From positions 186,001-250,000 of the forward strand of contig NZ_BMPB01000013.1 in NCBI RefSeq assembly GCF_014647375.1: DNA of 64,000 bases, given 5' to 3'. Under the pieces are notes generated by a model, which saw only the letters and a program-made list of their open reading frames with translations, was not told where the DNA came from and did not search any database. Shown one piece after another: positions 28,873 through 62,740 of this stretch; position 1 is the stretch's first letter, and the number at the start of each line of letters is the position of its first letter. The position numbers and the translations under genes were made by a program. The DNA comes from Parabacteroides faecis. Its GTDB lineage: Bacteria > Bacteroidota > Bacteroidia > Bacteroidales > Tannerellaceae.

Positions 28873-28904
28873 TGATTAGTAAAAACCAACGTTTTTTATC
28901 GTCA
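28873..28904. promoter_or_regulatory. 32-bp site related to the capsule-promoter dyads
   Basis: It runs from TGATTAGT to ATCGTCA and agrees with the site at 48104-48135 at 24 of 32 positions, and with that at 47954-47985 at 22 of 32, without gaps. Its own two halves agree at 10 of 16 positions. It sits between the divergent recombinase gene and fkp. It could be a recombination site or a regulator-binding site. Part of the match comes from A and T runs. Confidence 0.45.
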
Positions 28905-29033: not shown

Positions 29034-29094
29034 TGCTAAAGATTTGATTAATTAGACGGAAATGACTTCATTGTTTTCCGACACATATATAAAT

Positions 29095-46343: not shown

Positions 46344-47471
46344 TTAAATGATTTTCTTTTTTTTCAACGAATTCTTTTTGTTTTGTATTTTATCCAGACA
46401 AACGTTCAGAGCCGTCCAGATCACTATATCTCCAATAAATAGAATATTGATATTTATATAAGGGGCCAGTACGATATTCAAACAGCTGAATGCCCATGAA
46501 ATTGCCAGGATATAGAGTAGTGCCTTGTGGGGGCTGCACCCTATTTCCAGGAATTTATGGTGTATATGATTTTTATCGGGTGAAAACAGGCTTTTACGTC
46601 TTCGGAACCGGATCAGCATGACCCGTATTACATCGAACATCGGAACGATCAATGTCGAAAATGAAATAAGGATGGCGCTGGTGGTATAAGGAGAGATGTC
46701 CGGGGTATACGCCGCATAACTGATACAGAGAAAAGCCAGGATATACCCCAGGGTCAGGCTTCCGGTATCCCCCATAAATATCTTCCTTCCGTGTTCCGCC
46801 TGTCCGAACACATTATAATAGAAAAAGGGGATCAGTACGCCCAGTGTTGAGAAAGACAACATCGCATACGACCACATATGTTGATGTAGAAACAAAGACC
46901 CTAATATCAGCAAGGCAGTCCCACTTAATCCGGATGCCAACCCGTCGATACCGTCTATCAGATTGATTGCATTCGTAATAAAAACGATTGCAAAGATAGT
47001 CAGCGGCATACCGATCCAGGGGGCCAGTTCATAGATACCGAAAAGACCGTAAAAGTCATTGATCCACAATCCGGAAAGTGGGAGTAGGGAGGCTGCTAGA
47101 ATTTGTACGATGAATTTGGTATGGTATCGCAGACCTATCAGATCGTCTTTGATACCGGCCAGATAGAGTACGATCAGTCCGCAGGTAAGTAAATAGAAAT
47201 CGGGAGTGATATGCGGAGTGATATTTTGAGGAATTTTCAACCCGTATAAATACCCCAGATACGAGATCGCGGAAACGAAAGCCAGCGAGAATAAGATAGT
47301 CGGTGCAAATGAAATCCCTCCCAGACGGGGGATAGCACCCGTGTGTATTTTTCGTTCGTTAGGCATATCAAAGAGTCTTTTTGTCAAAGCCACGATCAAT
47401 ATGCGTGGAATGATCAGCATAGATAAGACTACTGATATGATAAAGGCCATTAAAATCAAGACATATATCAT
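46344..47471 (-). CDS. WecA-like polyprenyl-phosphate sugar-1-phosphate transferase
   Basis: A 375-residue integral membrane enzyme of the MraY/WecA/TagO family with about ten helices. The marks are NERKIHTGAIPRLGGISFAPT, the Asp pair in LAGIKDDLIGLRYHTKF, FITNAINLIDGIDGLASGLSG and the HIHH motif in FSPDKNHIHHKFLEIG. It starts repeat-unit synthesis by moving GlcNAc-1-P or a related sugar phosphate to undecaprenyl phosphate at the inner membrane. It is first in the minus operon, so the control region of that operon is 47472-47985. I find no full -7 box in that region in this orientation. Confidence 0.92.
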   Translation of the reverse strand: MIYVLILMAFIISVVLSMLIIPRILIVALTKRLFDMPNERKIHTGAIPRLGGISFAPTILFSLAFVSAISYLGYLYGLKIPQNITPHITPDFYLLTCGLIVLYLAGIKDDLIGLRYHTKFIVQILAASLLPLSGLWINDFYGLFGIYELAPWIGMPLTIFAIVFITNAINLIDGIDGLASGLSGTALLILGSLFLHQHMWSYAMLSFSTLGVLIPFFYYNVFGQAEHGRKIFMGDTGSLTLGYILAFLCISYAAYTPDISPYTTSAILISFSTLIVPMFDVIRVMLIRFRRRKSLFSPDKNHIHHKFLEIGCSPHKALLYILAISWAFSCLNIVLAPYININILFIGDIVIWTALNVCLDKIQNKKNSLKKKKII

Positions 47472-47503
47472 TTGCGTTTGAAGTTAAGTTATACGACAAT
47501 GTT

Positions 47504-47528
47504 CGTCAGTCCCATCTGGTCACTGACG
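47504..47528. promoter_or_regulatory. Hairpin just upstream of the WecA-like gene
   Basis: CGTCAGT at 47504-47510 pairs with ACTGACG at 47522-47528 with an 11-base loop, 33 bp from the start codon. It would form in the leader RNA of the minus operon and could affect translation or transcript extension. Confidence 0.4.
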
Positions 47529-47815
47529 TTTATTCATTCTGTTTTTTGTTTAGTCGCTATATAAACAGAAGATTCCTTGATTCGTTCACAAATAGGAGGT
47601 CAATTACTCTATTTTAACTATGAATATCAATGCTTTGGAAGGCTCAAAAAAGAAAGACCTGTGTTTGGGAAGCTATAATTTTCATTTTCAGTTCTCATTA
47701 GAAGATGTATTTTTCATAAATGATAAATGAATCTAAATTCGAAAAAAAGATTAAAGAGCATACAGTTGCAGAATGAGTCGTTTTTACTCTCCGAAAAGAC
47801 CCTCGAAAATGACCG

Positions 47816-47882
47816 AAAAACCTGTTTAAAGGCGTATAAAAGGGCTTGTATCTGTAGATTTTGAGCTAAAAAACAGGTTTTT
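47816..47882. promoter_or_regulatory. Long-range inverted repeat in the shared control region
   Basis: AAAAACCTGTTT (47816-47827) and its complement AAACAGGTTTTT (47871-47882) are separated by 43 bases. On the minus strand it would lie in a long leader if the minus operon is read from the promoter segment. Both arms end in A or T runs, so a terminator or attenuator role is possible. Confidence 0.35.
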
Positions 47883-47953
47883 GTATATTTCTGATAACCT
47901 GTGTGTTAATAAATCGGATATGCCTTGTAGCTACTTCTCGATAGGGGTGAAAA

Positions 47954-47985
47954 TGACGAATTTAAACGATCGTTTATTCTCGCCA
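47954..47985. promoter_or_regulatory. Left 32-bp dyad flanking the capsule promoter
   Basis: The two halves of this site agree at 12 of 16 positions around the centre at 47969/47970. The core TAAACGATCGTTTA (47963-47976) is a perfect palindrome, and the outer arm TGAC...GCCA is near-perfect. With its partner at 48104-48135 it encloses the promoter. Read outward-in, both sites share AATGAC, six bases, then AAACGATCGTTT. Confidence 0.65.
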
Positions 47986-48068
47986 TTATTTAGTTTTTTT
48001 TAAGTGTTAAATTTAAGCATTAAAAGATTCATTATACCTTGTCTAACAAGGCATGATGAATTTTTTAT

Positions 48069-48100
48069 TTTGTTTGTTCGGAAATTAATGCATACTTTTG
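48069..48100 (+). promoter_or_regulatory. Promoter of the plus-strand polysaccharide operon
   Basis: The -33 box TTTG (48069-48072), a 20-bp spacer and the -7 box TACTTTTG (48093-48100) match the Bacteroides consensus fully. Transcription would begin near 48107, giving a leader of about 240 bases before the start codon at 48348. The promoter lies wholly between the two dyads, and its start point falls inside the right dyad. Confidence 0.8.
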
Positions 48101-48103
48101 CGG

Positions 48104-48135
48104 TGACTAAAAAAAACGATCGTTTTTCCTAGTCA
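48104..48135. promoter_or_regulatory. Right 32-bp dyad overlapping the transcription start
   Basis: TGACTA (48104-48109) and TAGTCA (48130-48135) flank an A run, the CGATCG core centred at 48119/48120, and a T run; the halves agree at 14 of 16 positions. Its centre is exactly 150 bp from that of the left dyad. It covers the expected start of transcription, so a protein bound here could block the promoter; recombination here with the left site would flip the promoter. Confidence 0.7.
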
Positions 48136-48140
48136 TTATC

Positions 48141-48166
48141 GTCGTTACAGCTTTGTGACTGACGAC
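48141..48166 (+). promoter_or_regulatory. Leader hairpin after the capsule promoter
   Basis: GTCGTTA pairs with TGACGAC in the 5' leader of the plus operon. A second small hairpin (ATCACC/GGTGAT, 48217-48233) follows. Neither is followed by a T run, so they are not simple terminators. Confidence 0.35.
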
Positions 48167-48347
48167 CTTCTGTGTATCAATTATATAACTAGTATTAATG
48201 TCCTATCTTTTGATAATCACCACTTCGGTGATTCCAATATTACACCCGTTTTTGAAATTCTCCGGTGTTTGGTAATAGCTTTCAGAGTTATTGCTCTGAT
48301 ATATCTATGCTTTCCGGGAAATTCGTAACCATATTCATACCCTTCTT

Positions 48348-50288
48348 ATGACAATGAACTATCATTATATAAGTTTACAGCATTTTTTTTCTCGTCTGAT
48401 AACAATGAGATACATTAATAAGTGGATTATTTTTTGGTTTGACTTGCTCATTTCGTTGTCAGTTTCATTGATTGGAGTATTAGGACTTTTTTCCTTTTTA
48501 CGTATCCCATACACCCAGGCGGATGTTTTGAAAGGTGCATTTGCTTCTTTAATAGGAAGTTTGATCGCTTTTTTCACGTTTAAGGTGTATCATGGGGTAA
48601 TTCGCCATTCCACCTTGCGTGGTTTATGGAGGATTTGGGGAGTTGCTGTATTGAAATCAATTGTCCTGTGTACGTTGCTTTTGGTCTTAAAAGCTTCGTT
48701 TACTCCCAAGGTTTATCTGGTCGGATTGTTTATCGATTGTGTTCTGACAATGTTGATGTTGGTCACCTTTCGCATTTTCATTGTGAACATGTATAATATG
48801 GTATTGCTGCAGTTCGGTAAAAAGCGAAAACAGGTGTTGGTCTATGGTACCGGTGATGAAAGTGTTATGATCGCTTCGACTGCAACCCGACATATTTTTG
48901 TTCAGGATTATTGTATAACCGGCTTCCTTACCTTCAACAAAGAGAAAAGGAATTTCCGCATCGCCGAATTGCCTGTTTATCAGGTTGCCTCTCGTGAAGA
49001 CCTTTTGAAGTTAGTAAACCGGAACTCTTTGGACGGAATACTTTTCCCTAATCTGAAAACAGTACAGTATGAGAAAGAACGGTTGATCCGTTTCTGTGAA
49101 CAGATCTCTTTGCATACTCTGGTGGTTCCCGAGATGGAAGAGGTTCATAACGGAACGATAAAACGGTCTATCCGTGACATAAAGATTGAAGACTTGTTGG
49201 GACGTGATGAGATCAAGATCAACATGCAGGAGATAGCTTGCTTGTTGGAGAATAAGGTGATACTGGTTACAGGTGCAGCCGGTAGTATCGGTAGTGAAAT
49301 TTGCCGTCAGCTAGCTCATTTCCCTATTTGTAAATTGATTTGTTTTGATTCAGCCGAAACTCCGATGCATAATTTGCGTTTGGAACTGGAAGATAAGTAT
49401 CCTAACCTGAGTTTTGTTCCTGTGATAGGAGATGTCCGCTGCGAAGATCGTTTGGACTATGTTTTCCGAAAATGGCATCCGCATATCGTATTCCATGCTG
49501 CTGCGTATAAGCATGTGCCGTTGATGGAGGAGAATCCTTGTGAGGCAGTGCGGGTTAATGTTTATGGAACACGGTTGGTTGCAGATGCTGCCGTAAAGTA
49601 CGGAGTTGAAAAGTTTGTAATGATTAGTACGGATAAAGCAGTGAATCCGACTAATATTATGGGGTGTAGCAAACGGCTGGCTGAAATTTATGTACAGAGC
49701 TTGAGTTTGGCTATTATAAAAGGTGAAGTACAGGGGGACACAAAATTTATAACGACCCGTTTCGGTAATGTTTTGGGTAGTAATGGTTCTGTCATACCTC
49801 GTTTCCGTGAGCAAATTAATAATGGAGGTCCGGTTACTGTAACTCATCCTGATATAATTCGTTATTTTATGACTATCCCAGAGGCGTGTCGGTTGGTGTT
49901 GGAAGCTGGTACGATGGGGAATGGAGGAGAGATATTTGTATTTGACATGGGGCAACCTGTGAAGATTGCAGATTTGGCTCGACGGATGATAGAACTTTCA
50001 GGTATGAGAGTCGGGGAGGATATTGAGATAGAGTATACGGGATTGCGCCCTGGCGAGAAATTGTATGAAGAGCTTTTAAGTCATAAGGAAAATACAAAAG
50101 AAACTCTCCACGAAAAAATTCGAATTGCTGATGTTAGAGAATATAACTATCAAGATGTGATAAGATGTGTCAATGTTTTGTCTAATCTTTCCCTGAATGT
50201 AGAAATAGTTGATATGGTGAGAGGAATGAAAAGCTTTGTTCCTGAGTTTAAGAGTCAGAATTCAGAATTTGAAAAGTTGGATAAGTAG
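48348..50288 (+). CDS. Membrane-bound NDP-sugar 4,6-dehydratase (CapD/PglF type)
   Basis: A 646-residue protein with four or so N-terminal membrane helices (about residues 25-155) and a CoA-binding-like linker domain (about 160-290). A cytoplasmic SDR domain follows: NAD binding by ILVTGAAGSIGSEICRQLAH, then MISTDKAVNPTNIMGCSKRLAE, FITTRFGNVLGSNGSVIPRFREQI and GLRPGEKLYEELL. Family members convert UDP-GlcNAc to its 4-keto-6-deoxy form, the first step toward bacillosamine, FucNAc4N or QuiNAc. It is first in the plus operon. A later in-frame ATG at 48408 exists, but relatives have a similar leader, so I keep 48348. The PglC- and PglD-like genes downstream fit a Pgl-type sugar. Confidence 0.92.
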   Translation: MTMNYHYISLQHFFSRLITMRYINKWIIFWFDLLISLSVSLIGVLGLFSFLRIPYTQADVLKGAFASLIGSLIAFFTFKVYHGVIRHSTLRGLWRIWGVAVLKSIVLCTLLLVLKASFTPKVYLVGLFIDCVLTMLMLVTFRIFIVNMYNMVLLQFGKKRKQVLVYGTGDESVMIASTATRHIFVQDYCITGFLTFNKEKRNFRIAELPVYQVASREDLLKLVNRNSLDGILFPNLKTVQYEKERLIRFCEQISLHTLVVPEMEEVHNGTIKRSIRDIKIEDLLGRDEIKINMQEIACLLENKVILVTGAAGSIGSEICRQLAHFPICKLICFDSAETPMHNLRLELEDKYPNLSFVPVIGDVRCEDRLDYVFRKWHPHIVFHAAAYKHVPLMEENPCEAVRVNVYGTRLVADAAVKYGVEKFVMISTDKAVNPTNIMGCSKRLAEIYVQSLSLAIIKGEVQGDTKFITTRFGNVLGSNGSVIPRFREQINNGGPVTVTHPDIIRYFMTIPEACRLVLEAGTMGNGGEIFVFDMGQPVKIADLARRMIELSGMRVGEDIEIEYTGLRPGEKLYEELLSHKENTKETLHEKIRIADVREYNYQDVIRCVNVLSNLSLNVEIVDMVRGMKSFVPEFKSQNSEFEKLDK

Positions 50289-50297
50289 TAGTAATAT

Positions 50298-51614
50298 ATG
50301 AATATAGCAATTGTTGGTACAGGTTATGTGGGGCTTGTTTCAGGAGCCTGTTTTTCAGAGATGGGAATAGATGTCACTTGTGTAGATATTGATGAAAACA
50401 AAATTACGAAGTTATTAAATGGTGAGATGCCTATCTATGAACCAGGTTTGGATGATTTAGTTACACGTAATGTGAAGGCCGACCGTCTTCATTTTACAAC
50501 AGATTTGACCTCTTGTTTGGATAAGGTGGAAATAGTCTTTAGTGCGGTGGGGACACCTCCGGACGAAGATGGAAGTGCCGATTTAAAATATGTACTGGAA
50601 GTAGCCCGTACGGTGGGACGTCATATTAAAAAGCATGTCGTATTAGTGACAAAGAGTACAGTGCCTGTTGGTACAGCCAAAAAAGTTCGGGCAGCTGTAC
50701 AGGAAGAGTTGGATAAACGTGGGGTTGAGATAGAATTTGATGTTGCTTCTAATCCTGAATTTTTGAAAGAGGGGGCAGCTATAAAAGATTTCATGACGCC
50801 TGATCGTGTGGTAGTTGGTGTTGAAAGTGAACGGGCAAAAAAAATGATGGAGAAATTATATCGTCCTTTCACACTGAATGGCTATCCCATCCTGATCATG
50901 GATGTTCCTTCAGCTGAAATGACGAAATATGCAGCCAATGCTATGTTGGCGACCCGCATCAGCTTTATGAACGATATTGCCAATCTCTGTGAACGTATCG
51001 GAGCAAATGTAGATAATGTACGTAAAGGTATGGGGACAGATTCCCGTATCGGTAGCCGTTTCCTGTATGCCGGTTGTGGGTATGGAGGTTCTTGCTTTCC
51101 AAAGGATGTGAAAGCTCTATTGCATACAGGAATAGAAAACGGATACCACATGCGTGTTATAGAAGCTGTAGAATCGGTAAATGAAGAGCAAAAGAATATT
51201 GTATTTGATAAGTTGAGTAAGGCTTTTAATGGAGATCTGAAAGGTAAGACTGTTGCTTTGTGGGGATTGTCTTTTAAACCTGAAACAGACGACATGCGTG
51301 AAGCTCCTGCGTTGGTTGTGATTGATAAGCTTTTGAAAGCAGGTGCTGTGATTAATGTATTCGATCCTATTGCCATGGATGAAACAAAGCGTAGGATAGG
51401 GGATGTAGTCACTTATTGTAAGGATATGTATGAAGCGGTGATTGATGCAGATGCTATCGCTTTGATGACGGAGTGGAAACAATTCCGTATGCCCAGTTGG
51501 GCTATTATTCGTAAAGCCATGAAGAATTACGTGGTTGTGGATGGGCGGAATATCTACGATGGTGAAGAATTGAAAGAGTTAGGTTTTATTTATTCGAGAA
51601 TCGGACAGAAATGA
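50298..51614 (+). CDS. UDP-glucose 6-dehydrogenase
   Basis: A 438-residue cytoplasmic enzyme that oxidises UDP-glucose to UDP-glucuronate with two NAD. The marks are [66 protein letters not shown], the active Cys in [14 protein letters not shown] and [16 protein letters not shown]. It lies 9 bp after the dehydratase and overlaps the next gene by 4 bp. The next enzyme uses its product. Confidence 0.96.
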
Positions 51615-52549
51615 AACGTATATTAGTAACGGGTGGAGCCGGTTTTATCGGTTCCCATTTATGTGAACGTTTGGTAAAAGAAGGTAATGATGTGATTTGT
51701 TTGGATAATTATTTTACCGGAAGTAAGGATAATATTCGTCATCTACTACAATATGATAATTTTGAGTTGGTTCGTCACGATGTAACCTCTCCCTATTATG
51801 CCGAAGTTGATGAGATCTATAACTTGGCTTGTCCTGCATCGCCTCCTCATTATCAATATAATGCCATCAAGACAATGAAAACTTCCGTTTACGGAGCAAT
51901 GAATATGCTGGGATTGGCTAAACGGACTAAAGCAAAAATCCTACAAGCTTCGACCAGCGAAGTGTATGGTGATCCGGCTATTCATCCGCAGGTTGAATCT
52001 TATTGGGGGAATGTGAATCCAATCGGTATCCGTAGTTGCTACGATGAAGGCAAACGTGCAGCCGAAACTTTGTTTATGGATTATCATCGTCAGAACGGTG
52101 TACGGATTAAAATCATCCGTATCTTTAATACGTATGGACCTCGAATGAATCCGAATGACGGACGTGTCGTTTCTAATTTCATCGTACAAGCGTTAAAAGG
52201 TGAAGATATCACAATCTATGGGGATGGAACCCAAACCAGAAGTTTCCAATATGTAGATGATCTGATTGAAGCCATGATCCGAATGATGGCAACAGGTGAT
52301 GATTTTATCGGTCCTGTCAATACAGGAAACCCCGGGGAGTTTACGATGTTGGAATTGGCAGAGAAAGTGATAGAGTTGACCCATTCAACATCTAAGATTG
52401 TGTATTGCCCGTTACCGGATGATGATCCGAAACAACGGAAGCCAGACATTACGTTGGCAAAAGAAAAACTGGAATGGGAACCTAAAATCCGATTGGAAGA
52501 AGGATTGAAGAAAACATTTGAATATTTTGAGGATAAAATAAAAGAGTGA
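51611..52549 (+). CDS. UDP-glucuronate decarboxylase (UDP-xylose synthase)
   Basis: A 312-residue SDR enzyme. The NAD site is [18 protein letters not shown]. The UXS marks are [31 protein letters not shown] and the Tyr-Lys pair in [13 protein letters not shown], plus [21 protein letters not shown]. It converts UDP-GlcA to UDP-xylose through a 4-keto intermediate. Directly coupled to the dehydrogenase by ATGA overlap, so the plus polymer probably contains xylose or a sugar made from it. Confidence 0.95.
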
Positions 52550-52589
52550 TACTTTTTAGGTAAAAGATTTATTCCCTTATTAAAATTAC

Positions 52590-54044
52590 ATGAGTGATTC
52601 ATTAAAACATCAAGCCGTAAAAGGCGTAATATGGAGTGCTATTGAACGGTTTTCCGTACAAGGGATACAGTTTGTGTTAACTATTATTATCGCTCGTTTG
52701 GTATTGCCGGCTGATTATGGATTGATAGCCATGCTGAATATCTTTTTGGCTATTGCCCAAGTTTTTGTGGATAGTGGTTTCTCGAATGCGTTGATACAAA
52801 AAAAGGATCGTACAGAAACAGATTTTTCTACGGTTTTCTATTTCAATATCTTTATTTCGGTAGTTTTTTATTTGCTCCTGTATTTTAGTGCACCTTACAT
52901 CTCGTCTTTTTATAAAGAACCAAGTTTGTCTCTGATAACACGTTGGATAGGATTGAATATTATTATATCAGGTTTATCCATTGTACAACGGGCTAAGTTG
53001 ACTATCAATGTCGACTTCAAAAAACAAGCTAAAGTTTCTTTTACAGCCGTATTAGTTAGCGGAATAATCGGGATTATATTGGCATATAAAGGTTGGGGGG
53101 TATGGGCGTTGGTAATCCAGACATTATCAAGCAGTCTATTAAATACATTATTATTATGGATATTTGCTAAATGGATTCCTAAATGGGTATTTTCAAGAGA
53201 ATCCTTTTACATTTTATTTTCATTTGGTTCTAAATTGCTCTTATCCGGGTTATTACATACAATTTATATGAACTTGTATAGCTTGGTGATAGGACGTCGA
53301 TATTCTTCTGTAGATGTAGGTTTTTATAATAGAGCGTACCAATTTGCTAATTTCCCTTCTATAAATATAGTGGGAATTATTAATAGGGTAATTTTCCCAA
53401 TACAGTGTGAAATGCAAGATGATAGTGAACGCCTTAGAATATCTTTTATCAATTACTTGAGAATGTCTTGTTTTATTATATTTCCATTAATGATTATTGC
53501 GGCGGTTTTATCTAAACCACTAATATTATTATTGCTGACAGATAAATGGCTTCCAGCTGCTAAATTGCTATCCATATTGTGTTTTGCTTATATGTGGTAT
53601 CCAGTAATGGTTGTCAATAATCAGATATTGAATGTAAAAGGTCATTCTGACTATTTTTTGCGTGCAGAAATTCTTAAAAAGATAATTGCGATTACTATAC
53701 TGTTTGTAACTTTATCTTTTGGAGTACAAATATTATGCTGGGGAATTGTTATATATAATTTCTTTGATATGATAATTATTATCTATTATTCCAAGAAAGT
53801 AATCTATGTAAAATATAGTGAACAAGTTCGTTATATAATGCCTTTATTTTTAATCTCATTATTAACTGGGGGAACAGTTTATTTGAGTACATGTTTTTTT
53901 GATGGAGATTTATTAGGCCAATTAATAATAGGGAGCCTCATTGGATTATTAGTTTATATATTGGCCTGCTTTATTTTTAGAATGCAAGAAATAGATCAAA
54001 TAGTATTGATAATAAAAAAGTTATATATAGAATGTACAAAGTAA
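52590..54044 (+). CDS. Wzx/WzxC-type flippase
   Basis: A 484-residue membrane protein with about 14 helices, of the lipopolysaccharide/teichoic acid flippase group (WzxC/AmsL-like). The start AVKGVIWSAIERFSVQGIQFVLTIIIARLVLP is diagnostic; VFVDSGFSNALIQKKDRTETDFSTVF follows. It is not close in sequence to the flippase at 43722, which supports two separate repeat-unit pathways. From about its middle on, the operon becomes clearly more AT-rich. It overlaps the next gene by 13 bp. Confidence 0.93.
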   Translation: MSDSLKHQAVKGVIWSAIERFSVQGIQFVLTIIIARLVLPADYGLIAMLNIFLAIAQVFVDSGFSNALIQKKDRTETDFSTVFYFNIFISVVFYLLLYFSAPYISSFYKEPSLSLITRWIGLNIIISGLSIVQRAKLTINVDFKKQAKVSFTAVLVSGIIGIILAYKGWGVWALVIQTLSSSLLNTLLLWIFAKWIPKWVFSRESFYILFSFGSKLLLSGLLHTIYMNLYSLVIGRRYSSVDVGFYNRAYQFANFPSINIVGIINRVIFPIQCEMQDDSERLRISFINYLRMSCFIIFPLMIIAAVLSKPLILLLLTDKWLPAAKLLSILCFAYMWYPVMVVNNQILNVKGHSDYFLRAEILKKIIAITILFVTLSFGVQILCWGIVIYNFFDMIIIIYYSKKVIYVKYSEQVRYIMPLFLISLLTGGTVYLSTCFFDGDLLGQLIIGSLIGLLVYILACFIFRMQEIDQIVLIIKKLYIECTK

Positions 54045-55027
54045 CCTTGTCCATGCCGATATACAATGTGGCTCCGTATGTGGAGCGTGCATTGCTTTCT
54101 GCATTGAACCAAACATTTGAAAGTATCGAATTTTTATTAGTGGACGATCGAGGAACCGATAACAGCATGGAGATTGTTCGTAGGATCATCAAAGACCATC
54201 CAAGAGGAAAAGATGTTCGTATTATAGAGCATCCACATAATATAGGTACGGGGGCTACAAAAAATACAGCTATAGACAATGCTCAGGGAGAGTTTCTGTT
54301 TTTCATGGATAGTGATGATGAGATTACCCCGGGTTGTATACAGGTGTTATATGATAAGATGATTGAGTGTCCTGTTGATTTTGTCGCTGGATCTATGTGT
54401 GAGGTCATAAATGATAGTAAAACTATAGATAGGGTTTTAATGGACACTACTCGAAAGGGAGAATTTGCTTTATCTACTTATATTTATAAAGATAGAAAGT
54501 ATTTCCCCATAATGCTTTGGAATAAATTGTATAATTTAAAATTTCTTCGCATAAATCATATTCGGTGTTATGATACTCATTTAAATGAAGATGATATTTT
54601 TAGCTTACACCTTTCTTATTATGTAAGAAGTTTTTCTTTTACTTCAAAAATAACTTTGAGATATTTTAGAAGAGATAGTTCAACTACAGGTAATACTAAT
54701 TTGATTAATACAGAAAGAATTATAAGGCAGGAAAAGGATATAGTTATAGAATTGAATAAGTATTTAAAAATGTATAATAAGGAAAGTGTATATCCTTATT
54801 ATTTATCATTTGTTATAAGAGTATTATTCTTTTTGTGTTTTAGATTTGTTAAATATAGGTGTACGAGTGATCTTGAAAAGAAAAATTTTGTAGATAGTTT
54901 ATATTTATTAGATATAAAGAATTGGGAAGTATTAAGATTTATGCATAAAGACATCAAAACACTGATGGCTTTTGTGTATTTAATGTTTCCATATAAAATA
55001 AAAAAAATTATTAGTAGATATTATTGA
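54032..55027 (+). CDS. GT2-family glycosyltransferase
   Basis: A 331-residue GT-A enzyme: VTLSMPIYNVAPYVERALLSAL, IEFLLVDDRGTDNSMEIV, GTGATKNTAIDNAQGEFLFFMDSDDE (DxD-type metal site), PVDFVAGSMCEV. The C-terminal third is Lys/Tyr-rich and has hydrophobic stretches. The donor sugar is unknown. The gene is very AT-rich. Confidence 0.88.
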   Translation: MYKVTLSMPIYNVAPYVERALLSALNQTFESIEFLLVDDRGTDNSMEIVRRIIKDHPRGKDVRIIEHPHNIGTGATKNTAIDNAQGEFLFFMDSDDEITPGCIQVLYDKMIECPVDFVAGSMCEVINDSKTIDRVLMDTTRKGEFALSTYIYKDRKYFPIMLWNKLYNLKFLRINHIRCYDTHLNEDDIFSLHLSYYVRSFSFTSKITLRYFRRDSSTTGNTNLINTERIIRQEKDIVIELNKYLKMYNKESVYPYYLSFVIRVLFFLCFRFVKYRCTSDLEKKNFVDSLYLLDIKNWEVLRFMHKDIKTLMAFVYLMFPYKIKKIISRYY

Positions 55028-55122
55028 GTTTATAGATAAGATATTTTATAGTTGTGTTTATGTTTTGATATATAGATGTATACGTTTGTAATATAAGAGT
55101 AGTATATTTTATTTATCTTGTT

Positions 55123-56202
55123 ATGTTAGATGCATATTTACATGTTTTTCTATTTCGATATATTTTATTATTAATTGTCTTTATTGAGTCTTTTTATTTG
55201 TTATTATTTTATAATCGTATACATGTTAATGGCGCTACAAATTTACGACTTACTTTGTTTTTTATATTTTGTCTATATTTTGTAGGATATAGACAATGGT
55301 GGATAGAAGATGTTTTTGGAGATTCTATACGTTATGGAAAAGCATATTTAGAGTTTTCATTATATAAATCATGGGATTTTGAAACCTATAAAGAATATGG
55401 ATTTTGGTTATTAACATATCTATGTAGATGGTTGGGGCTCTCAGTAGAGATGTTTTTTCTTGTTTGTGCATTTCTTTATCTTTTTCCTTTATTTGTATCT
55501 AGTTATAAGTTGTCAAAACAATATCCTCATTTGATTATATTATTTATTGTGACAACTATGAGTTTTTATATGTATGCAGTTGATGGAATAAGAAATGGTA
55601 TATCTACATCTTTTTTAATTTTAGCATTTGTGAATTATCGAAATACGTTACGATTTTTTATTTACTCATTAATTGCTTTTTCTTTCCATTACTCTGCAGT
55701 TTGGCCATTTTCGTTCTTTTGTATAGCAATTTTGTACCCTAAGGTTAAATTATATTTATTTGCCTGGGTGTTTTCAGTTTTTTGTGGATTTATGCTAAGT
55801 GGATATATAAAGAATCTACTTTTGATTATTCCTTTTTTGAATGAAAAAGCTGAGAGCTATCTGACTGGTACTGTAAGTTTAAGTATGTTTTCAAAAGTTG
55901 GATTCCGTTGGGATTTTGTTTTATATAGTTCGTTGCCTATCTGGTTTTCATCTTATTTTTATTTCATAAGATCTTATAGAAATGACTTTTATAATAAATT
56001 GTTTTCCTGTTATCTATTATCTAATATGCTATGGGTTTTTATAAATGAAGTTCCGTTTTCTAATAGATTTGCATATTTATCATGGTTTATGATGCCATTG
56101 TTAATTGTTTACCCAATGATTGATATGAAATATTTTAATTATAGATATACTTCTATATCAATTGTATTGATAGGATATTATTTATTTACGATTATTTTAT
56201 GA
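55123..56202 (+). CDS. EpsG/Wzy-type polysaccharide polymerase
   Basis: A 359-residue protein with about ten membrane helices. The first loop region FCLYFVGYRQWWIEDVFGDSIRYGKAYLEF and MYAVDGIRNGISTSFLILAFV with FSFHYSAVWPFSFF resemble the EpsG family (the last like F-H-x-SA). It follows a 95-bp gap with nothing recognisable and is joined to the next gene by a 4-bp overlap. It is the second polymerase candidate of the window and is strongly AT-rich. Confidence 0.82.
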   Translation: MLDAYLHVFLFRYILLLIVFIESFYLLLFYNRIHVNGATNLRLTLFFIFCLYFVGYRQWWIEDVFGDSIRYGKAYLEFSLYKSWDFETYKEYGFWLLTYLCRWLGLSVEMFFLVCAFLYLFPLFVSSYKLSKQYPHLIILFIVTTMSFYMYAVDGIRNGISTSFLILAFVNYRNTLRFFIYSLIAFSFHYSAVWPFSFFCIAILYPKVKLYLFAWVFSVFCGFMLSGYIKNLLLIIPFLNEKAESYLTGTVSLSMFSKVGFRWDFVLYSSLPIWFSSYFYFIRSYRNDFYNKLFSCYLLSNMLWVFINEVPFSNRFAYLSWFMMPLLIVYPMIDMKYFNYRYTSISIVLIGYYLFTIIL

Positions 56203-57197
56203 ATTCAAAGATTAGCTTAATAATACCAGTTTTTAATTTAGAAGCTTATATTGATCGATGCATTTCTAGTTTGCTTTTCCAAACTTATGAAAATTTGGAA
56301 TTTATTTTTGTCAATGATGGCTCTAAAGATAATTCGTTATCAATTTTACGTATGTACGAAAAGGAAGATAAACGTGTGAAGGTTATAGAACAAGAAAATG
56401 CGGGAGTTTCTGTTGCAAGAAATCGTGGTATTGAAGTTTCAACTGGAGATTATATCATGTTTGTTGATGGTGATGATTGGTTGGAATTTAATACAGTTGA
56501 AAAAATGTTTGAATATATAAATTCAGGGGACCATGATATTGCTTGTTGCAATTTTGTATTTGAGTGCTTAGAAACAGGTAAGAAACGTTATACTTCTCGT
56601 CCATTTACTTCATATGAATTGAAAGGTAGAGATATCCTTGCCTCTTATTTGTCTGGTAAAGGTTTATGGGCATCTTCGTGTGCTCGGTTATATAAAGTAT
56701 CTTTTTTGAAAACTTATTGTTTTCAGTTTGAACCAGGAGTTTCTATAGGGGAAGATGGTTTTTTCTCGCTTCAGGTAATGTCCAAGGCGAAATCAATAAT
56801 CATATGTGGAGATCCATTTTATCATGTACTTGTACGTTCTTCTAGTGCAACAAGAAGTGTAGCATATAATGGTTTTTTATTTAGAGAAAATTCTTATTGT
56901 AATTATTTATATAATAATGGTTTGTTAGAAGATTTTATAGAGGAGTATAGGGTATGGTTTCTTTGGTCTTGTACTTCTTATATTTTGAAAGCTGCATTAA
57001 GACTTTCTTATGCTAATTTTAAGACTTCTTATGATAGATATGTCATTGATTCAAATTTTTACCAATTTAATAAACACTCTATTCGTAAAAGAATGTCTTT
57101 GAAAAAGTATCTATTGGCATTGTTGTCTAAATATCCACAATTGGCTTACAGCATTTTTTATATCTATACGAAGATGTATAAAAAATATTTGTTTTGA
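56199..57197 (+). CDS. GT2-family glycosyltransferase
   Basis: A 332-residue GT-A enzyme: ISLIIPVFNLEAYIDRCISSLL, LEFIFVNDGSKDNSLSIL, NAGVSVARNRGIEVSTGDYIMFVDGDDWLE (metal site) and DIACCNFVFECLETGKKR. It belongs to the plus operon and is separated from the dehydratase by 24 bp. The donor is unknown. Confidence 0.9.
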   Translation: MNSKISLIIPVFNLEAYIDRCISSLLFQTYENLEFIFVNDGSKDNSLSILRMYEKEDKRVKVIEQENAGVSVARNRGIEVSTGDYIMFVDGDDWLEFNTVEKMFEYINSGDHDIACCNFVFECLETGKKRYTSRPFTSYELKGRDILASYLSGKGLWASSCARLYKVSFLKTYCFQFEPGVSIGEDGFFSLQVMSKAKSIIICGDPFYHVLVRSSSATRSVAYNGFLFRENSYCNYLYNNGLLEDFIEEYRVWFLWSCTSYILKAALRLSYANFKTSYDRYVIDSNFYQFNKHSIRKRMSLKKYLLALLSKYPQLAYSIFYIYTKMYKKYLF

Positions 57198-57221
57198 TTA
57201 AATGTAATTGTTATATAAGAT

Positions 57222-58244
57222 ATGTCTATATTTAAAGATAAAGTCCTTTTGATTACTGGAGGCACAGGTTCTTTTGGTAATATGGTTTTAAAGCGTTTTC
57301 TAGATTCGGATATTAAGGAAATACGTATTTTTAGTCGAGATGAAAAAAAACAAGATGATATGCGGCATTTGCTTCAAAATCCTAAAGTGAAGTTTTATAT
57401 AGGAAATGTCAGGGATCGTTCTTCTGTGGATAATGCTATGGCGGGTGTAGATTATGTGTTTTCTGCAGCAGCATTAAAACAGGTTCCTTCTTGTGAGTTT
57501 TTTCCTATGCAGGCCGTAATGACGAATGTGATGGGGACTAATAATGTTATAGAGTCTGCAATACTGCATAAAGTAAAAAATGTAGTAGTGTTATCTACAG
57601 ATAAAGCTGCCTATCCTATAAATGCGATGGGAGTTAGTAAAGCAATGATGGAGAAAGTCGCAATAGCGAGAGGACGTTCATTAGGTGCCAATGCGGAAAC
57701 AACAATTTGTTGTACCCGATATGGGAATGTAATGGCAAGTCGTGGTTCGGTTATTCCACTTTGGATAGAGCAAATCGAACGGCATTTACCTCTTACTATT
57801 ACAGATCCTAATATGACTCGATTTATGATGACATTAGACGATGCGGTGGATTTGGTTATTTATGCTTTTGAACATGGGAGTAATGGAGATCTATTTGTCC
57901 AAAAAGCGCCTGCGGCCACATTGGTAACTTTAGCATCAGCACTAAAAGAGTTATTTCATTCGGATTCTGAGATTCGGATTATAGGAACAAGACATGGTGA
58001 AAAAATATATGAGACGTTAGTTACTCGTGAGGAAATCGTTCGGGCAGAAGATATGGGGGAATATTTTAGAGTTCCGTGTGATGCAAGAGATTTGAACTAC
58101 GATCGATTAGAGTCAGGGAACGAAAGGATTACTCCTACTGATGATTATCATTCTCACAATACAAGGCGTTTGGATATAGAGGAAATGAAAGCATTATTGT
58201 TAAAGGTCGATTATGTAAGAGTAAAATTAGGTTTAAGTTTATGA
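57222..58244 (+). CDS. CapE/FnlA-like UDP-GlcNAc 4,6-dehydratase/5-epimerase
   Basis: A 340-residue soluble SDR enzyme: VLLITGGTGSFGNMVLKRFL, IRIFSRDEKKQDDMR, VVLSTDKAAYPINAMGVSKAMMEK, TRYGNVMASRGSVIPLWIEQI. CapE converts UDP-GlcNAc to UDP-2-acetamido-2,6-dideoxy-beta-L-arabino-hexos-4-ulose, the first step toward UDP-L-FucNAc or L-QuiNAc type sugars. The next gene is a reductase, as usual. The third enzyme for L-FucNAc, a CapG/FnlC-type 2-epimerase, is not beside it; the WecB at 35410 looks like the ManNAc type. Confidence 0.93.
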   Translation: MSIFKDKVLLITGGTGSFGNMVLKRFLDSDIKEIRIFSRDEKKQDDMRHLLQNPKVKFYIGNVRDRSSVDNAMAGVDYVFSAAALKQVPSCEFFPMQAVMTNVMGTNNVIESAILHKVKNVVVLSTDKAAYPINAMGVSKAMMEKVAIARGRSLGANAETTICCTRYGNVMASRGSVIPLWIEQIERHLPLTITDPNMTRFMMTLDDAVDLVIYAFEHGSNGDLFVQKAPAATLVTLASALKELFHSDSEIRIIGTRHGEKIYETLVTREEIVRAEDMGEYFRVPCDARDLNYDRLESGNERITPTDDYHSHNTRRLDIEEMKALLLKVDYVRVKLGLSL

Positions 58245-59098
58245 GGGTCTTAATTTTGGGAGCTACCGGTATGGCCGGTCATTTAATCACACTCTACTTT
58301 AAGGAGAGAGGGTATGATACAGTAGCCTTTGCTACAAGGAAAATTTCTTATTGTGAATGCATAGTAGGAGATGCTTTTGAACTTGATAAGTTACAAAATA
58401 TTCTTATTGAGGGAAAATATGATGTGGTAATTAATTGTATAGGTTTACTTAATCAAACAGCAGAAGACAATCCTGATAAAGCAATTTTTTTAAATAGTTA
58501 TTTGCCTCATATCCTTGAGAGTTGGTTAAAAGATAAGTCAACAAAGCTCATTCATATGAGTACAGATTGTGTATTTGCAGGAAATACAGGTCCTTATACA
58601 GAAAAAAGTTTTCCAGATGGAAAAACAATGTACGATCGTTCTAAAGCTTTAGGTGAGATTAATAATAATAAAGATTTGACCTTTCGAAATTCAATAATTG
58701 GTCCTGATATGAAGTGTTATGGCATTGGACTTTTTAATTGGTTTATGAAGCAAAAATCGTCTATTTATGGTTTCACTGGTGCTATTTGGACGGGGGTAAC
58801 TACTCTTACATTGGCGAAAGCTATTGAAAAAGCTATTGATGAAAATTTAACAGGAATATATAATTTGGTAAATAATGAAACTATCTCTAAGTATGATTTG
58901 TTGAATCTTTTTAATTGTTGTTGTAAAAAGCATCCTATAGAGATCTTGAAAAATAATGATTTCAATTTAGATAAAACTTTAATTAATACTCGTAAGGATT
59001 TTTCTTTTAAAGTTCCTTCCTATAAAGATATGATTGTGGAGATGAAAGATTGGATTGATGAACATAGTGGTTATTATCCTATATATTATTATCAGTAG
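58241..59098 (+). CDS. RmlD-like NDP-sugar reductase
   Basis: A 285-residue SDR protein: VLILGATGMAGHLITLYF, DVVINCIGLLNQTAEDNPDKA, IHMSTDCVFAGNTGPYTEK and the Tyr-x3-Lys pair MYDRSKALGE. It lacks the C-terminal cupin domain of CapF. It probably reduces the 4-keto sugar made by the CapE-like enzyme, with which it overlaps by 4 bp; the exact product cannot be told. Confidence 0.88.
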   Translation: MRVLILGATGMAGHLITLYFKERGYDTVAFATRKISYCECIVGDAFELDKLQNILIEGKYDVVINCIGLLNQTAEDNPDKAIFLNSYLPHILESWLKDKSTKLIHMSTDCVFAGNTGPYTEKSFPDGKTMYDRSKALGEINNNKDLTFRNSIIGPDMKCYGIGLFNWFMKQKSSIYGFTGAIWTGVTTLTLAKAIEKAIDENLTGIYNLVNNETISKYDLLNLFNCCCKKHPIEILKNNDFNLDKTLINTRKDFSFKVPSYKDMIVEMKDWIDEHSGYYPIYYYQ

Positions 59099-59108
59099 TG
59101 TATAAATT

Positions 59109-60167
59109 ATGGAAGAATATTGTGGTTCAAATATTTTGCTATTCATTCCAGGAGGAGTGAACACTTTATATGGAAAAGCTATATATAATTGTCTTGTAAG
59201 TAAAGGATGCAATGTTTCTGTTTATCCGGAACGACCAAGTTCTAAAACTGTAGACAAAATAGTATTACGTCTTGTGAAACGAACAATGCCTTCTTATTTC
59301 TGTTCTTATATAAAGCATGTTATTCAATTAGAACGGAAGTATTTTGATTTTATTTTTGTTATACGAGGTGAAGGATTTAGTCCTGTTGCTGTTGATATGT
59401 TACGAGATGCCTACCCTATGGCTAAATTAATTTTATATACTTGGGATGTATTTGCTACTAATGATCTTTCTTGGATTGTTAAAAGTTTTGATAGAACCAT
59501 ATCTTTTGATATAGGAGATGCTAAAAAATATAAAATGGTTTTTCGTCCTTCATTTTTTTTACCTGAGCATCTTACTCTTTCGAAGATAGAACCGATTAAG
59601 TATGACTTATTCATGGTTGGGACTATATCTAGCGATAGATATTACTGGATGAAAAGGATGGAAAGATATCTTCAGAATAAAGGGATGAATTATTTTTTTT
59701 ATTATTATATTCCATCATATCCATCTTTAATACAAGCAAAGATAAGGGGAAACATTCCTTTGTTGTGTAATAAAAAAGAATTTCATTTTACACCATTATC
59801 TATTGAAGATCAGTCATACTATATTGCCCAATCCAAATGTTTTTTTGATGTACAACATAGATTACAAACAACAAGTCTGAATAGACGTCCATTTGAAGCT
59901 TTAGCAACACGCACAAAATTAGTGACGAATTCAAATTGTGTATGTGATTATAATTTTTATAGAAAAAATAATATATGTGTAGTCTCAGACGATATAGATA
60001 TTCCAGAAAATTTTATGACTTCCCCTTTTGAAGATGTACCAGATTCGATAAAAAGTCTTTATACAGTAGATGCTTGGCTCAATGATATTTGGAGATTGGA
60101 TTTGGAAGAGTCTTATTTGAAATTTTTTAATTCAAATTGTAAAACAGATGAAATATTTCATAGATAG
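59109..60167 (+). CDS. Putative GT-B glycosyltransferase, CgeB/CpsH-like
   Basis: A 352-residue protein without signal peptide. The pattern NILLFIPGGVNTLYGKAIYNCL, LILYTWDVFATNDLSW, YDLFMVGTISSDRYYWMKRME and the donor-site-like block LNRRPFEALATRTKLVTNS resembles CgeB-like and capsule CpsH-like transferases. It is AT-rich like its neighbours. Assignment is by overall shape, so a glycosyltransferase role is probable but not sure. Confidence 0.7.
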   Translation: MEEYCGSNILLFIPGGVNTLYGKAIYNCLVSKGCNVSVYPERPSSKTVDKIVLRLVKRTMPSYFCSYIKHVIQLERKYFDFIFVIRGEGFSPVAVDMLRDAYPMAKLILYTWDVFATNDLSWIVKSFDRTISFDIGDAKKYKMVFRPSFFLPEHLTLSKIEPIKYDLFMVGTISSDRYYWMKRMERYLQNKGMNYFFYYYIPSYPSLIQAKIRGNIPLLCNKKEFHFTPLSIEDQSYYIAQSKCFFDVQHRLQTTSLNRRPFEALATRTKLVTNSNCVCDYNFYRKNNICVVSDDIDIPENFMTSPFEDVPDSIKSLYTVDAWLNDIWRLDLEESYLKFFNSNCKTDEIFHR

Positions 60168-60251
60168 TATATAGGATTTTGTTTTTATATTTTATTGATT
60201 GAGATAATTTTGTGTGTTTTCGGTTGAATTTGAGGATGAAAATTGTTTAAT

Positions 60252-60887
60252 ATGTATAGATGTTTTTGGAAGCAGATAATTGATTTTATTTTATCTCTAT
60301 TAATATTGATTGTACTTTTCCCAATATTATTAGTTGTGACTCTGTGTTTATATTTCACAAACAAAGGAGCCGGTGTTTTCTTTCTTCAAGAGCGTCCGGG
60401 TAAGAATGGGAAGATCTTCAAGGTTATTAAGTTCAAGACAATGACGGATGAGCGGGATGCTGAGGGAAAATTGTTGCCTGATGCTGATCGTTTGACGAAG
60501 ATCGGGAAATTTATTCGTTCTACTTCAATTGATGAATTGCCACAGTTGATTAATGTGCTTAAAGGGGATATGGCATTGATTGGTCCGAGACCGTTGTTGC
60601 CTGAATATCTACCGTTTTACACTACAAAACAGGCACGAAGACATGAAGTTCGTCCAGGTATAACTGGTTGGGCACAAGTAAATGGAAGAAATTTTCTCCC
60701 ATTTAGTAAACGGTTTGAATTAGACGTTTGGTATGTTGATAATTGTACATTTAAGACCGATTTAAAAATCATACTTATGTCAATAAAGAAAGTGCTACTT
60801 CGGAAGGACATATCTATTGGTTCAAATGTATCAAGAGATGCCGATGACCTAGGTTTTACAAAATATATCAAATATACAAAAGAATGA
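60252..60887 (+). CDS. PglC-like initiating sugar-phosphate transferase
   Basis: I take the ATG at 60252 (MYRCFWKQIIDF); a TTG three codons earlier is in frame. The 211-residue protein has one N-terminal membrane-anchoring segment (IIDFILSLLILIVLFPILL) and the monotopic phosphoglycosyl transferase core: VFFLQERPGKNGKIFKVIKFKTM, the catalytic Asp-Glu in STSIDELPQLINVLKGDMALIGPRPLL, HEVRPGITGWAQVNGRN. The enzyme moves a sugar-1-phosphate, often bacillosamine-like, to undecaprenyl phosphate. It gives the plus operon its own starting step, besides WecA in the minus operon. Confidence 0.94.
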   Translation: MYRCFWKQIIDFILSLLILIVLFPILLVVTLCLYFTNKGAGVFFLQERPGKNGKIFKVIKFKTMTDERDAEGKLLPDADRLTKIGKFIRSTSIDELPQLINVLKGDMALIGPRPLLPEYLPFYTTKQARRHEVRPGITGWAQVNGRNFLPFSKRFELDVWYVDNCTFKTDLKIILMSIKKVLLRKDISIGSNVSRDADDLGFTKYIKYTKE

Positions 60888-61519
60888 AAAAACTAATTAT
60901 AGTAGGTGGAGGTGGAATGGGACGCTCCGTGTATTGTATTGCAAAAGGTTGCGTTGATTTCAATAAAGATTTTTCAATTAAAGGTTTTATTGATGATAAT
61001 TTGCATTCACTGGATGGCTTTGAGGCTTATCCTCCGCTGTTGGGAACTATTGATGGTTATCAAATAGAAGACAATGATGTTTTTGTTTGTTCTATCGGAA
61101 ACACAAAAGTAAAAAAGATGGTATGTGAAAAATTAAAGGAGAGAGGAGCCAAATTCTATACCTTGATACATAAAACAGCAATAGTTAGAGAGAATGTTAA
61201 AATAGGTGATGGTTGTATTATAGCTGAATATGCTTCTGTTGGAGCAGATTGCACAATAGGAGAAAATTGCTTGATTCAGACTTTTTCGATTGCCGCTCAT
61301 GATTGTAAAATTGGTAATTATGTTCGTATAGATACACACTCAACTTGTGTTGGTGGTGTAGTAGTTAAAGACATGGCAACAATTCATACAACTGCAGTTG
61401 TGAGTCATAAAGTTGTTATTGGCGAAGGTGCTACAGTGGCAGCAATGAGTTTTGTAATAAAGAAAGTGAGTCCATATACAACGGTTTACGGAAATCCTGC
61501 AAAGGTATTGTTAATGTAA
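60884..61519 (+). CDS. PglD/NeuD-like sugar O/N-acetyltransferase
   Basis: A 211-residue left-handed beta-helix enzyme. The N-terminal nucleotide-sugar domain is LIIVGGGGMGRSVYCIAKG. Hexapeptide repeats include NVKIGDGCIIAEYASVGADCTIGENCLI and the probable catalytic His in SIAAHDCKIGNYV. The end is VYGNPAKVLLM. In Pgl pathways it acetylates the 4-amino sugar using acetyl-CoA. It overlaps the PglC-like gene by 4 bp. A matching PglE-type aminotransferase is not seen in the window. Confidence 0.92.
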   Translation: MKKLIIVGGGGMGRSVYCIAKGCVDFNKDFSIKGFIDDNLHSLDGFEAYPPLLGTIDGYQIEDNDVFVCSIGNTKVKKMVCEKLKERGAKFYTLIHKTAIVRENVKIGDGCIIAEYASVGADCTIGENCLIQTFSIAAHDCKIGNYVRIDTHSTCVGGVVVKDMATIHTTAVVSHKVVIGEGATVAAMSFVIKKVSPYTTVYGNPAKVLLM

Positions 61520-61530
61520 AAACGGAAGGT

Positions 61531-62469
61531 ATGAAAGCATTTGTATTCCCGGGTCAGGGAAACCAGAAAGAAGGAATGGGTAAGGATCTCTACGAGAATT
61601 TCCCTAAAGCGAGAGCTGTTTTTGAACAAGCTAACGATATTTTAGGTGAGCGTTTTAGCGATGTGCTGTTTTCTGTGAATGAAGAGCAACTTATGGATAC
61701 TCGCTATACCCAGAAAGGTGTATTTATTTATGAGGTTGCTGCGGCATTAGGACAAGATCTTATTTCACCTGATTGTGTAGCAGGTCATTCATTGGGCGAG
61801 TATGCTGCATTAGTAATTTCGGGGGCATTAAGCTTTGAAGAATGTCTCAAGTTTATTGTAAAACGAGGTAATGTCTTTTATGAGGCATTTCAGAAACATC
61901 CAAGTGCAATGGGTGCCATTATTGGTATTGCTGAAGATAAGGTTCAGACCGTAATTGATAGAGTTAGTGAAGAGGATAGTGAGAAACTCTATATAGCGAA
62001 CTATAATGGTCCAGGACAATTAGTTGTTACAGGGGCTAGAAATTCTGTGAAAAAAGCATGTAAAATACTAAAGGAGATGGGGGCAAAGCGTGCTCTCGTT
62101 CTACCTCAGAAGGGCGTTGGACATTCTCCTAATTCTGTAGTAGAAGGATTAATTCTTAGTAAAGAACTCAGGAAACTTAATTGGTTGACTCCAAGAATCC
62201 CAATTTATCAAGATGTGGATGGTTTGCCACATACGGATCCAGTGGAGATTATGGACAATCAAATTAAGTTAATGACATCTCCTGTTCAGTGGACAAAGCT
62301 GATAGATAATATGCTTAACAATGGAGTAAATGAGTTTTATGAGTGTGGTACCGATGACACATTACAGAAAATCATTTGTAGAATGGCACCGGAGTCATTG
62401 GTTACATCAATCTTGCATACTCCTATTTACGAGGGAAAAGTACACGATTATTCAATAGTTAAAGAGTAA
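61531..62469 (+). CDS. FabD-like ACP S-acyltransferase
   Basis: A 312-residue acyltransferase: AFVFPGQGNQKEGMGKDLYE, nucleophile Ser87 in VAGHSLGEYAALV, and a second His in KGVGHSPNS. FabD moves malonyl from CoA to ACP in the cytoplasm. It follows the acetyltransferase by 11 bp and starts a run of four fatty-acid-type genes. A copy of the housekeeping fabD is not expected in a polysaccharide operon, so this is probably a dedicated one serving the ACP at 62508. Confidence 0.92.
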   Translation: MKAFVFPGQGNQKEGMGKDLYENFPKARAVFEQANDILGERFSDVLFSVNEEQLMDTRYTQKGVFIYEVAAALGQDLISPDCVAGHSLGEYAALVISGALSFEECLKFIVKRGNVFYEAFQKHPSAMGAIIGIAEDKVQTVIDRVSEEDSEKLYIANYNGPGQLVVTGARNSVKKACKILKEMGAKRALVLPQKGVGHSPNSVVEGLILSKELRKLNWLTPRIPIYQDVDGLPHTDPVEIMDNQIKLMTSPVQWTKLIDNMLNNGVNEFYECGTDDTLQKIICRMAPESLVTSILHTPIYEGKVHDYSIVKE

Positions 62470-62507
62470 TATATTTAATTTATTTATTAATTAATTTTTT
62501 TGCAATA

Positions 62508-62735
62508 ATGAATTTAGAAGAATTTATCAAGGCATTTGCCGAGGAATTTGATGAGACACCTGCTGATATTTTCAAGGCTGACACTAAATACAGACAGCTT
62601 AAAGAGTGGAGTTCTCTTACTGCTTTGAGTATTATCTCTATGGTTGACGACCAGTTTGATAAAACTATCACAGGTGCAGATATTCGCTCAACGGAAACCA
62701 TCGAAGATTTGTTTAACATTGTACAGGCAAAGTAA
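62508..62735 (+). CDS. Dedicated acyl carrier protein
   Basis: A 75-residue acidic four-helix protein. The expected phosphopantetheine site is Ser36 in EWSSLTALSII, in place of the usual D-S-L. The Trp before it and the SSL form are found in non-housekeeping carrier proteins. It is placed between the FabD-like and KASIII genes, so acyl groups are probably built on it for transfer to a sugar or lipid. Confidence 0.9.
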   Translation: MNLEEFIKAFAEEFDETPADIFKADTKYRQLKEWSSLTALSIISMVDDQFDKTITGADIRSTETIEDLFNIVQAK

Positions 62736-62740
62736 TTATT

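Follow-up and report, generated by a model that had tools for sequence, protein, structure and literature searches.

Paired sites with matched central dinucleotides flank a probable Mpi-type invertible capsule promoter in Parabacteroides faecis

The Mpi recombinase of Bacteroides fragilis is reported to invert 13 regions, seven of which are polysaccharide promoters (PMC4747536), and its repeat is given as ARACGTTCGTN (PMC8375218). The PVR7-12 capsule switches described in B. intestinalis have an invertible promoter of 183 to 186 bp with the repeat GTTCGTTTAA, reported together with at least two Mpi homologues, and transcription from the Mpi-like switch of this species starts inside the proximal repeat (PMC8375218). 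The capsule switches of Parabacteroides distasonis are reported to carry another repeat (PMC12118408), and inversions in this species have been detected from sequencing reads (PMC5903667). Mpi-type invertible capsule promoters are already known, and the interest of the locus described here lies in the dinucleotide classes of its site family and in the question of site polarity. Among the titles listed in a literature search, none dealt with dinucleotide classes or with P. goldsteinii Mpi sites that have an AT centre, and no claim is made that these are unpublished.

The DNA analyzed was a stretch of 64,000 nt from Parabacteroides faecis (GCF_014647375.1, contig NZ_BMPB01000013.1, positions 186,001 to 250,000, forward strand), referred to as the window. 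The initial annotation had described two 32-bp dyads with the same core, lying 150 bp apart from centre to centre and enclosing a full promoter. A search with the pattern TGACN6AAACGATCGTTTN6GTCA, allowing up to three mismatches, confirmed this arrangement, with one mismatch at 47954-47985, none at 48104-48135 and only one further match in the whole window, the single site of Table 1; no match was detected in 100 shuffles. Both cores read AAACGATCGTTT, and their centres at 47969.5 and 48119.5 are exactly 150 bp apart. The core is, as the initial annotation had noted, one base off the B. fragilis repeat. The outer arms of the dyads are imperfect (GCCATT for GTCATT on the left and GGTGAC for AATGAC on the right). 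Extended to 36-mers, the left and right sites share 26 of 36 bases, and 28 of 36 are shared between either site and its reverse complement. The promoter was likewise confirmed: TTTG-N20-TACTTTTG occurs without mismatch and is the sole exact match in 47400-48450, both strands having been scanned, and several further matches with one mismatch were found on the plus strand of this interval. The interval 47954-48135 consequently holds a promoter flanked by two inverted copies of a recombinase-type site. As only 3 bases separate the -7 element from the right dyad, the start of transcription is expected at the edge of this dyad or within it (predicted near 48105-48107), so that the dyad probably overlaps the start. 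A perfect 12-bp inverted repeat with a 43-nt loop was also seen at 47816-47882, left of the site pair and upstream of the left operon.

Table 1. Coordinates of the features in the 64,000-nt window
Feature	Position	Strand	Description	Basis
Mpi-family master DNA invertase	28213-28815	-	serine recombinase, 200 aa	NF009949, 323 bits (cut-off 272); PF00239
Single family site	28873-28904		57 bp upstream of mpi start codon	pattern match
wecA-like gene, left operon	46344-47471	-	reads left	
Conserved leader of left polysaccharide operon	47472-47641	-		similar in G004, G019, G022, G024
Left predicted recombination site (dyad)	47952-47987		core AAACGATCGTTT at 47964-47975, AT centre	pattern match and site family
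Predicted invertible segment	47970-48119		150 bp, core centre to core centre	C11 paralogue inverted
Bacteroidales promoter	48069-48100	+	TTTG 48069-48072, 20 bp, TACTTTTG 48093-48100; points right, toward capD	
Right predicted recombination site (dyad)	48102-48137		core 48114-48125, AT centre	pattern match and site family
First gene of switched operon	48348-50288	+	646-aa CapD/PglF-like	PF02719, 402 bits
Rest of presumed operon	50298-63805	+	polysaccharide genes	by eye except Wzx (PF13440)

The sites belong to a family that is dispersed over the 6.66-Mb genome, which falls in the goldsteinii/gordonii group of Parabacteroides. The core AAACGATCGTTT occurs 18 times, against approximately 0.7 expected from base composition and none for a reversed-pattern control. 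Outer arms are missing in 3 of these 18, and the 12-mers at C7:67816, C9:205802 and C23:33147 were excluded for want of outer arms or of a partner. A 34-mer pattern with up to three mismatches gave 37 matches per strand and none with the control. Many loci share the site: once weaker partners in the fetched loci were counted, the genome held 46 sites in 23 pairs, spaced by 141 to 176 bp, with ten pairs at 173 bp. Two sites were unpaired, namely the site upstream of mpi and a solitary site on contig C12 (L293 2687-2718; G000:C12:2687), which lies approximately 1.5 kb before a gene that resembles a TonB receptor by eye. In the strict B. fragilis sense (ARACGTTCGTN) the window pair is one base off, and AAACGTTCGTTT is read by single sites of two other own pairs (C8:294906 and C15:210228). 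In another Parabacteroides genome (G060), 16 of 28 sites have TA centres (AAACGTACGTTT), which are also self-complementary; 6 of the 16 lie within 75 bases of a contig start.

Spacings were mostly grouped near 141, 153, 163, 174 and 184 bp, with a few values in between (179 and 181). A periodicity of 10.2 to 10.8 bp was detected with a p value of 0.0016 for distinct values without 172 to 174, a choice made after the values had been seen. A period of approximately 10.5 bp is consistent with two phased sites brought together in a looped synapse, and would suit a repressor loop too. An apparent triple site (G024:C11, L311 1567-1949), with two direct sites 177 bp apart, was read as a scaffolding artefact because the stretch between the sites contains a string of N and duplicates the segment next to it; its spacing was taken as 174 in the periodicity test. 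This artefact seems to sit at a heterogeneous switch.

The central dinucleotides varied from pair to pair. Centres of the 23 own pairs were AT (9), TT/AA (10), GT/AC (3) and TC/GA (1), and the two centres agreed in the inverted sense in all 23 and in all 21 pairs tested from P. gordonii (G019). Every pair with an asymmetric centre was inverted (14/14 own and 11/11 P. gordonii) and none was direct. The observed agreement was never matched in 20,000 re-pairings, which had means of 5.9 and 6.3. As the own 23 pairs were entered as pairs, the solitary C12 and mpi sites fall outside this count by construction, and the test bears on agreement within pairs, not on how many of the sites have a partner. 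For P. gordonii there were 51 sites, of which 50 were listed and 49 used, C2:1148164 having been dropped as a poor match; the 21 pairs took up 42 of the 49, and 7 were left single. Of these seven, six (C2:86325, C2:1651485, C1:1596333, C1:1673489, C1:1798973 and C2:1474503) have a weaker partner whose centre is in agreement on inspection by eye, and the last one lies upstream of mpi. With unequal 2-bp overlaps, resolvase-type enzymes are reported to yield recombinants in traces only (PMC11607074), and efficient exchange by serine integrases is described only for parallel alignment of the central dinucleotides (PMC3783163). Matched centres would be required by a serine recombinase, since mismatched 2-bp overlaps yield traces only, but are not needed by operators. 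The self-complementary AT centre of the window sites, which the initial annotation considered unusual for an invertase, is real but is not unusual in the genus, being found in 9 of 23 own and 10 of 21 P. gordonii pairs.

Inversion was detected between homologous loci. For P. goldsteinii (G024), 20 of the 21 fetched loci (L266 has no pair) were compared with 18 loci of genome G022; the G024 loci came from 20 regions plus G024:C51, and with the 18 G022 regions they represent a sample of the sites. With a flank score of >150 as the cut-off, nine orthologous pairs, some of which lean mainly on one flank, could be aligned. The inner segment was inverted in two, L251/L272 (AT centres) and L261/L280 (TT/AA centres), and collinear in seven. 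Among these seven, two G024 loci have the same best partner in G022 and two more have another in common, so that the nine comparisons are not all independent. Comparison of P. gordonii with G022 at five loci detected one inversion (again L272, with weak flanks), three collinear segments and one unclear case; nine loci compared with G024 gave no inversion, six collinear segments and three unclear cases. Against L272 of G022 the own locus L085 was inverted, and against L251 of G024 it was collinear, with modest flank scores; the remaining own loci with comparable inner segments were collinear. When bases were compared one by one, the outer half-arms kept to their flanks and the inner ones moved together with the segment; half-arms differed by one base at most in L251/L272 and were identical in L261/L280. 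From this behaviour of the half-arms the crossover can be placed within the core.

The window segment has a paralogue at G000:C11:82784-82973, which is 75% identical, sites included, and carries the segment in the inverted orientation; a stretch of 31 bases, leading from the promoter to within the inner half-arm, is an exact reverse complement in the paralogue. Right flanks of the two loci are 90% identical over approximately 71 bp; the site takes up the first 32 of these, which leaves approximately 40 bp for the leader proper. The left flanks are unrelated. The difference between C11 and the window is an inversion between paralogues and not within one locus. Both orientations were observed for the two orthologous loci and for the window segment relative to its C11 paralogue; the evidence for inversion comes from these homologous loci and the paralogue, the window locus being known in one assembled orientation.

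A gene of the curated Mpi family lies in the same window, and its product is 97% and 95% identical to the homologues of P. goldsteinii and P. gordonii, respectively. The solved chains closest to it by sequence, 4m6f and 3uj3, are both named DNA-invertase. Among 39 Parabacteroides genomes, at least two sites were present in 18 of 21 with an Mpi homologue versus 5 of the remaining 18 (p = 0.0003, Fisher test), a comparison that favours close relatives because the site pattern was built on the own genome. A homologue was defined as full length with ≥70% identity, and G003 (72%, residues 1 to 153 only) was counted among the others. Exceptions were G004, with 18 sites and no close Mpi; G023, with an Mpi of 66% identity and 9 sites; G034, with an Mpi of 72% identity and no site; and G015 and G030, with one site each. 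The own genome also has two further small serine recombinases, which are 37 to 40% identical to Mpi. The window Mpi is presumed to be the enzyme that acts on these sites. The single site upstream of its gene recurs as an identical 32-mer in P. gordonii (L299) and P. goldsteinii (L301, opposite strand), and may be an Mpi binding site for autoregulation of mpi. Beside mpi and divergent from it lies a gene for a 956-aa Fkp-like protein (29062-31932; fucokinase/GDP-fucose pyrophosphorylase, by eye).

In the assembled orientation the promoter faces the capD-led operon, which would correspond to an ON state in its presumed effect on expression. Genes downstream of capD all read in its direction and, named by eye apart from Wzx, encode a sugar dehydrogenase, an SDR protein, a Wzx flippase, glycosyltransferases, a Wzy-like protein, epimerases, a sugar transferase, an acetyltransferase and acyl-chain functions. 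Four other pairs stand beside a capD-like or wecA-like first gene as identified with Pfam (L290/L003, L292/L013, L079 and L086), and the promoter of each points away, that is, OFF; the window pair is thus the one ON state among five switches of this type. At these other loci promoter direction was read from the -7 element, as TTTG at -33 was present in some cases but not in all. Seven of the ten 173-bp pairs (L067 to L075 and L082) precede a gene for a MNKKFST-type protein, recognized by eye, with the promoter pointing away. Overall, the promoter pointed away from such a gene, again by eye, in 8 of 8 own loci and 11 of 12 sampled G022 loci, L272 being the one that pointed toward it. Neither of two such proteins tested had a Pfam match, and one of them (L067) starts differently from MNKKFST. 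Phase-variable surface glycoproteins are known in P. distasonis. Two site pairs were also seen directly before genes of the ECF-type sigma-70 family (L011 1731-2324 and L076 1702-2262), and entire regulons may therefore be phase-variable.

Taken together, what was observed is the sites, the promoter, inversion between homologous loci, a crossover within the core and a single gene assigned to the curated Mpi family, and the dyads are very probably crossover sites at which an Mpi-type serine recombinase flips the promoter; we infer inversion of the window segment in living cells. Mpi would bind both dyads and loop the 150 bp of DNA between them, cut each site at its central AT with a 2-bp stagger, as taken from the chemistry of the family, and rotate and rejoin the ends so that the promoter is flipped; in the inverted state the promoter would point away from the capD operon and leave it OFF. 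The initial annotation had proposed both such an invertible promoter, which is supported by the matched inverted centres, the inverted homologous segments, the core crossover and the Mpi-family gene, and a pair of operators that loop DNA over the promoter. In the latter reading a dimeric repressor would bind both dyads and the DNA would not rearrange. Near-perfect dyads, one of them over the predicted transcription start, and spacings that cluster near multiples of approximately 10.5 bp would suit operators, and the single site upstream of mpi could plausibly serve binding only. A repressor loop nevertheless fails to explain why homologous segments lie in opposite orientations, with half-arms that travel with the segment, or why asymmetric centres are matched within pairs and always inverted, and we regard it as very improbable; a fixed arrangement of operators is at odds with the rearrangement seen between homologous pairs. 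An invertible promoter could, in addition, serve the capD operon on the right or the wecA operon on the left according to its orientation. On geometry alone such a toggle had appeared likely, since both flanking operons are polysaccharide loci that read away from the site pair, and the best promoter match on the minus strand of 47471-47954 has two mismatches, with no full consensus. It was weakened by the leader of the left operon, which is conserved in four relatives (Table 1) with no invertible pair in the regions fetched there, and by a DnaJ-like gene (by eye) that lies upstream in G019 and G024. In the leader search, 8 of 39 genomes, the own included, matched part of the query, and those four matched two stretches. 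Conservation of the leader without a pair makes a separate promoter for the left operon most likely, so the toggle is unlikely and the capD operon, with its own switch, most likely just stands beside the left operon.

Whether the sites of an inverting pair also permit excision bears on the AT class. An AT centre is self-complementary and leaves the site without polarity, and with no orientation check an AT-centred pair might be deleted as well as inverted. The solitary AT site at C12:2687 would fit this, as over approximately 970 bp its right flank shares 79% identity with a P. gordonii locus that has a complete 142-bp pair with a promoter. However, AT pairs are intact at 9 own and 10 P. gordonii loci, and deletion must hence be rare or selected against; furthermore, the left outer flank of C12:2687 resembles the P. 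gordonii locus weakly. With 90 bases of this flank the score was reached by 0 of 500 dinucleotide shuffles and by 1 of 160 flanks of other loci, and with 40, 60, 150 and 300 bases by 20, 1, 7 and 0 of 500 shuffles, respectively; when the eight bases next to the site were left out, it was reached by 12 of 500 shuffles with 90 bases and by 32 of 500 with 60 bases. These flanks hint faintly at C12:2687 as a candidate deletion scar, and deletion of AT pairs is conceivable though doubtful. With similar reserve, we suggest that one Mpi may serve AT, GT/AC, TT/AA and TC/GA pairs, the AT class being both inverted and excised with geometry favouring inversion. Different central dinucleotides would then leave loci of different classes unable to recombine with each other, and in the AT class, which has no polarity check, it would have to be the looped geometry of the complex, and not site polarity, that favours inversion. 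If this is true, the genus offers a natural comparison of polar and nonpolar sites for one enzyme.

With the site family comes a large and clearly delimited collection of surface switches, probably phase-variable, in the P. goldsteinii/gordonii group, with polysaccharides, the MNKKFST-type protein family and ECF sigma factors as their targets. Polar and self-complementary centres that are matched within pairs would allow a direct test of how a serine invertase chooses between inversion and deletion.

Among known systems, Hin and Gin belong to the same recombinase superfamily as the window Mpi (PF00239). Gin needs Fis and an enhancer, and these bacteria are not known to encode Fis. The same need is reported for Hin (PMC4817059). 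The APCS2/PD switches of P. distasonis come from the same genus and are putative invertible promoters before capsule operons; their GCTACTYRGNRAGTAGC repeat and segment of 314 to 345 bp differ from the site sequence and the 150-bp spacing found here. With PVR7-12 of B. intestinalis the window locus shares a capsule promoter that is invertible and a start of transcription in the proximal repeat, both of these being predicted here, whereas the repeat reported for PVR7-12 is shorter, its segment longer and its core another. The sites described here differ from those of B. fragilis in being longer dyads with TGAC outer arms and in their centres, which are AT at the window locus and GT/AC, TT/AA or TC/GA elsewhere in the own genome, and by inspection the operon has no leading UpxY gene. 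As in B. fragilis, an Mpi-family serine recombinase is found together with many scattered promoter segments that have polysaccharide operons downstream.
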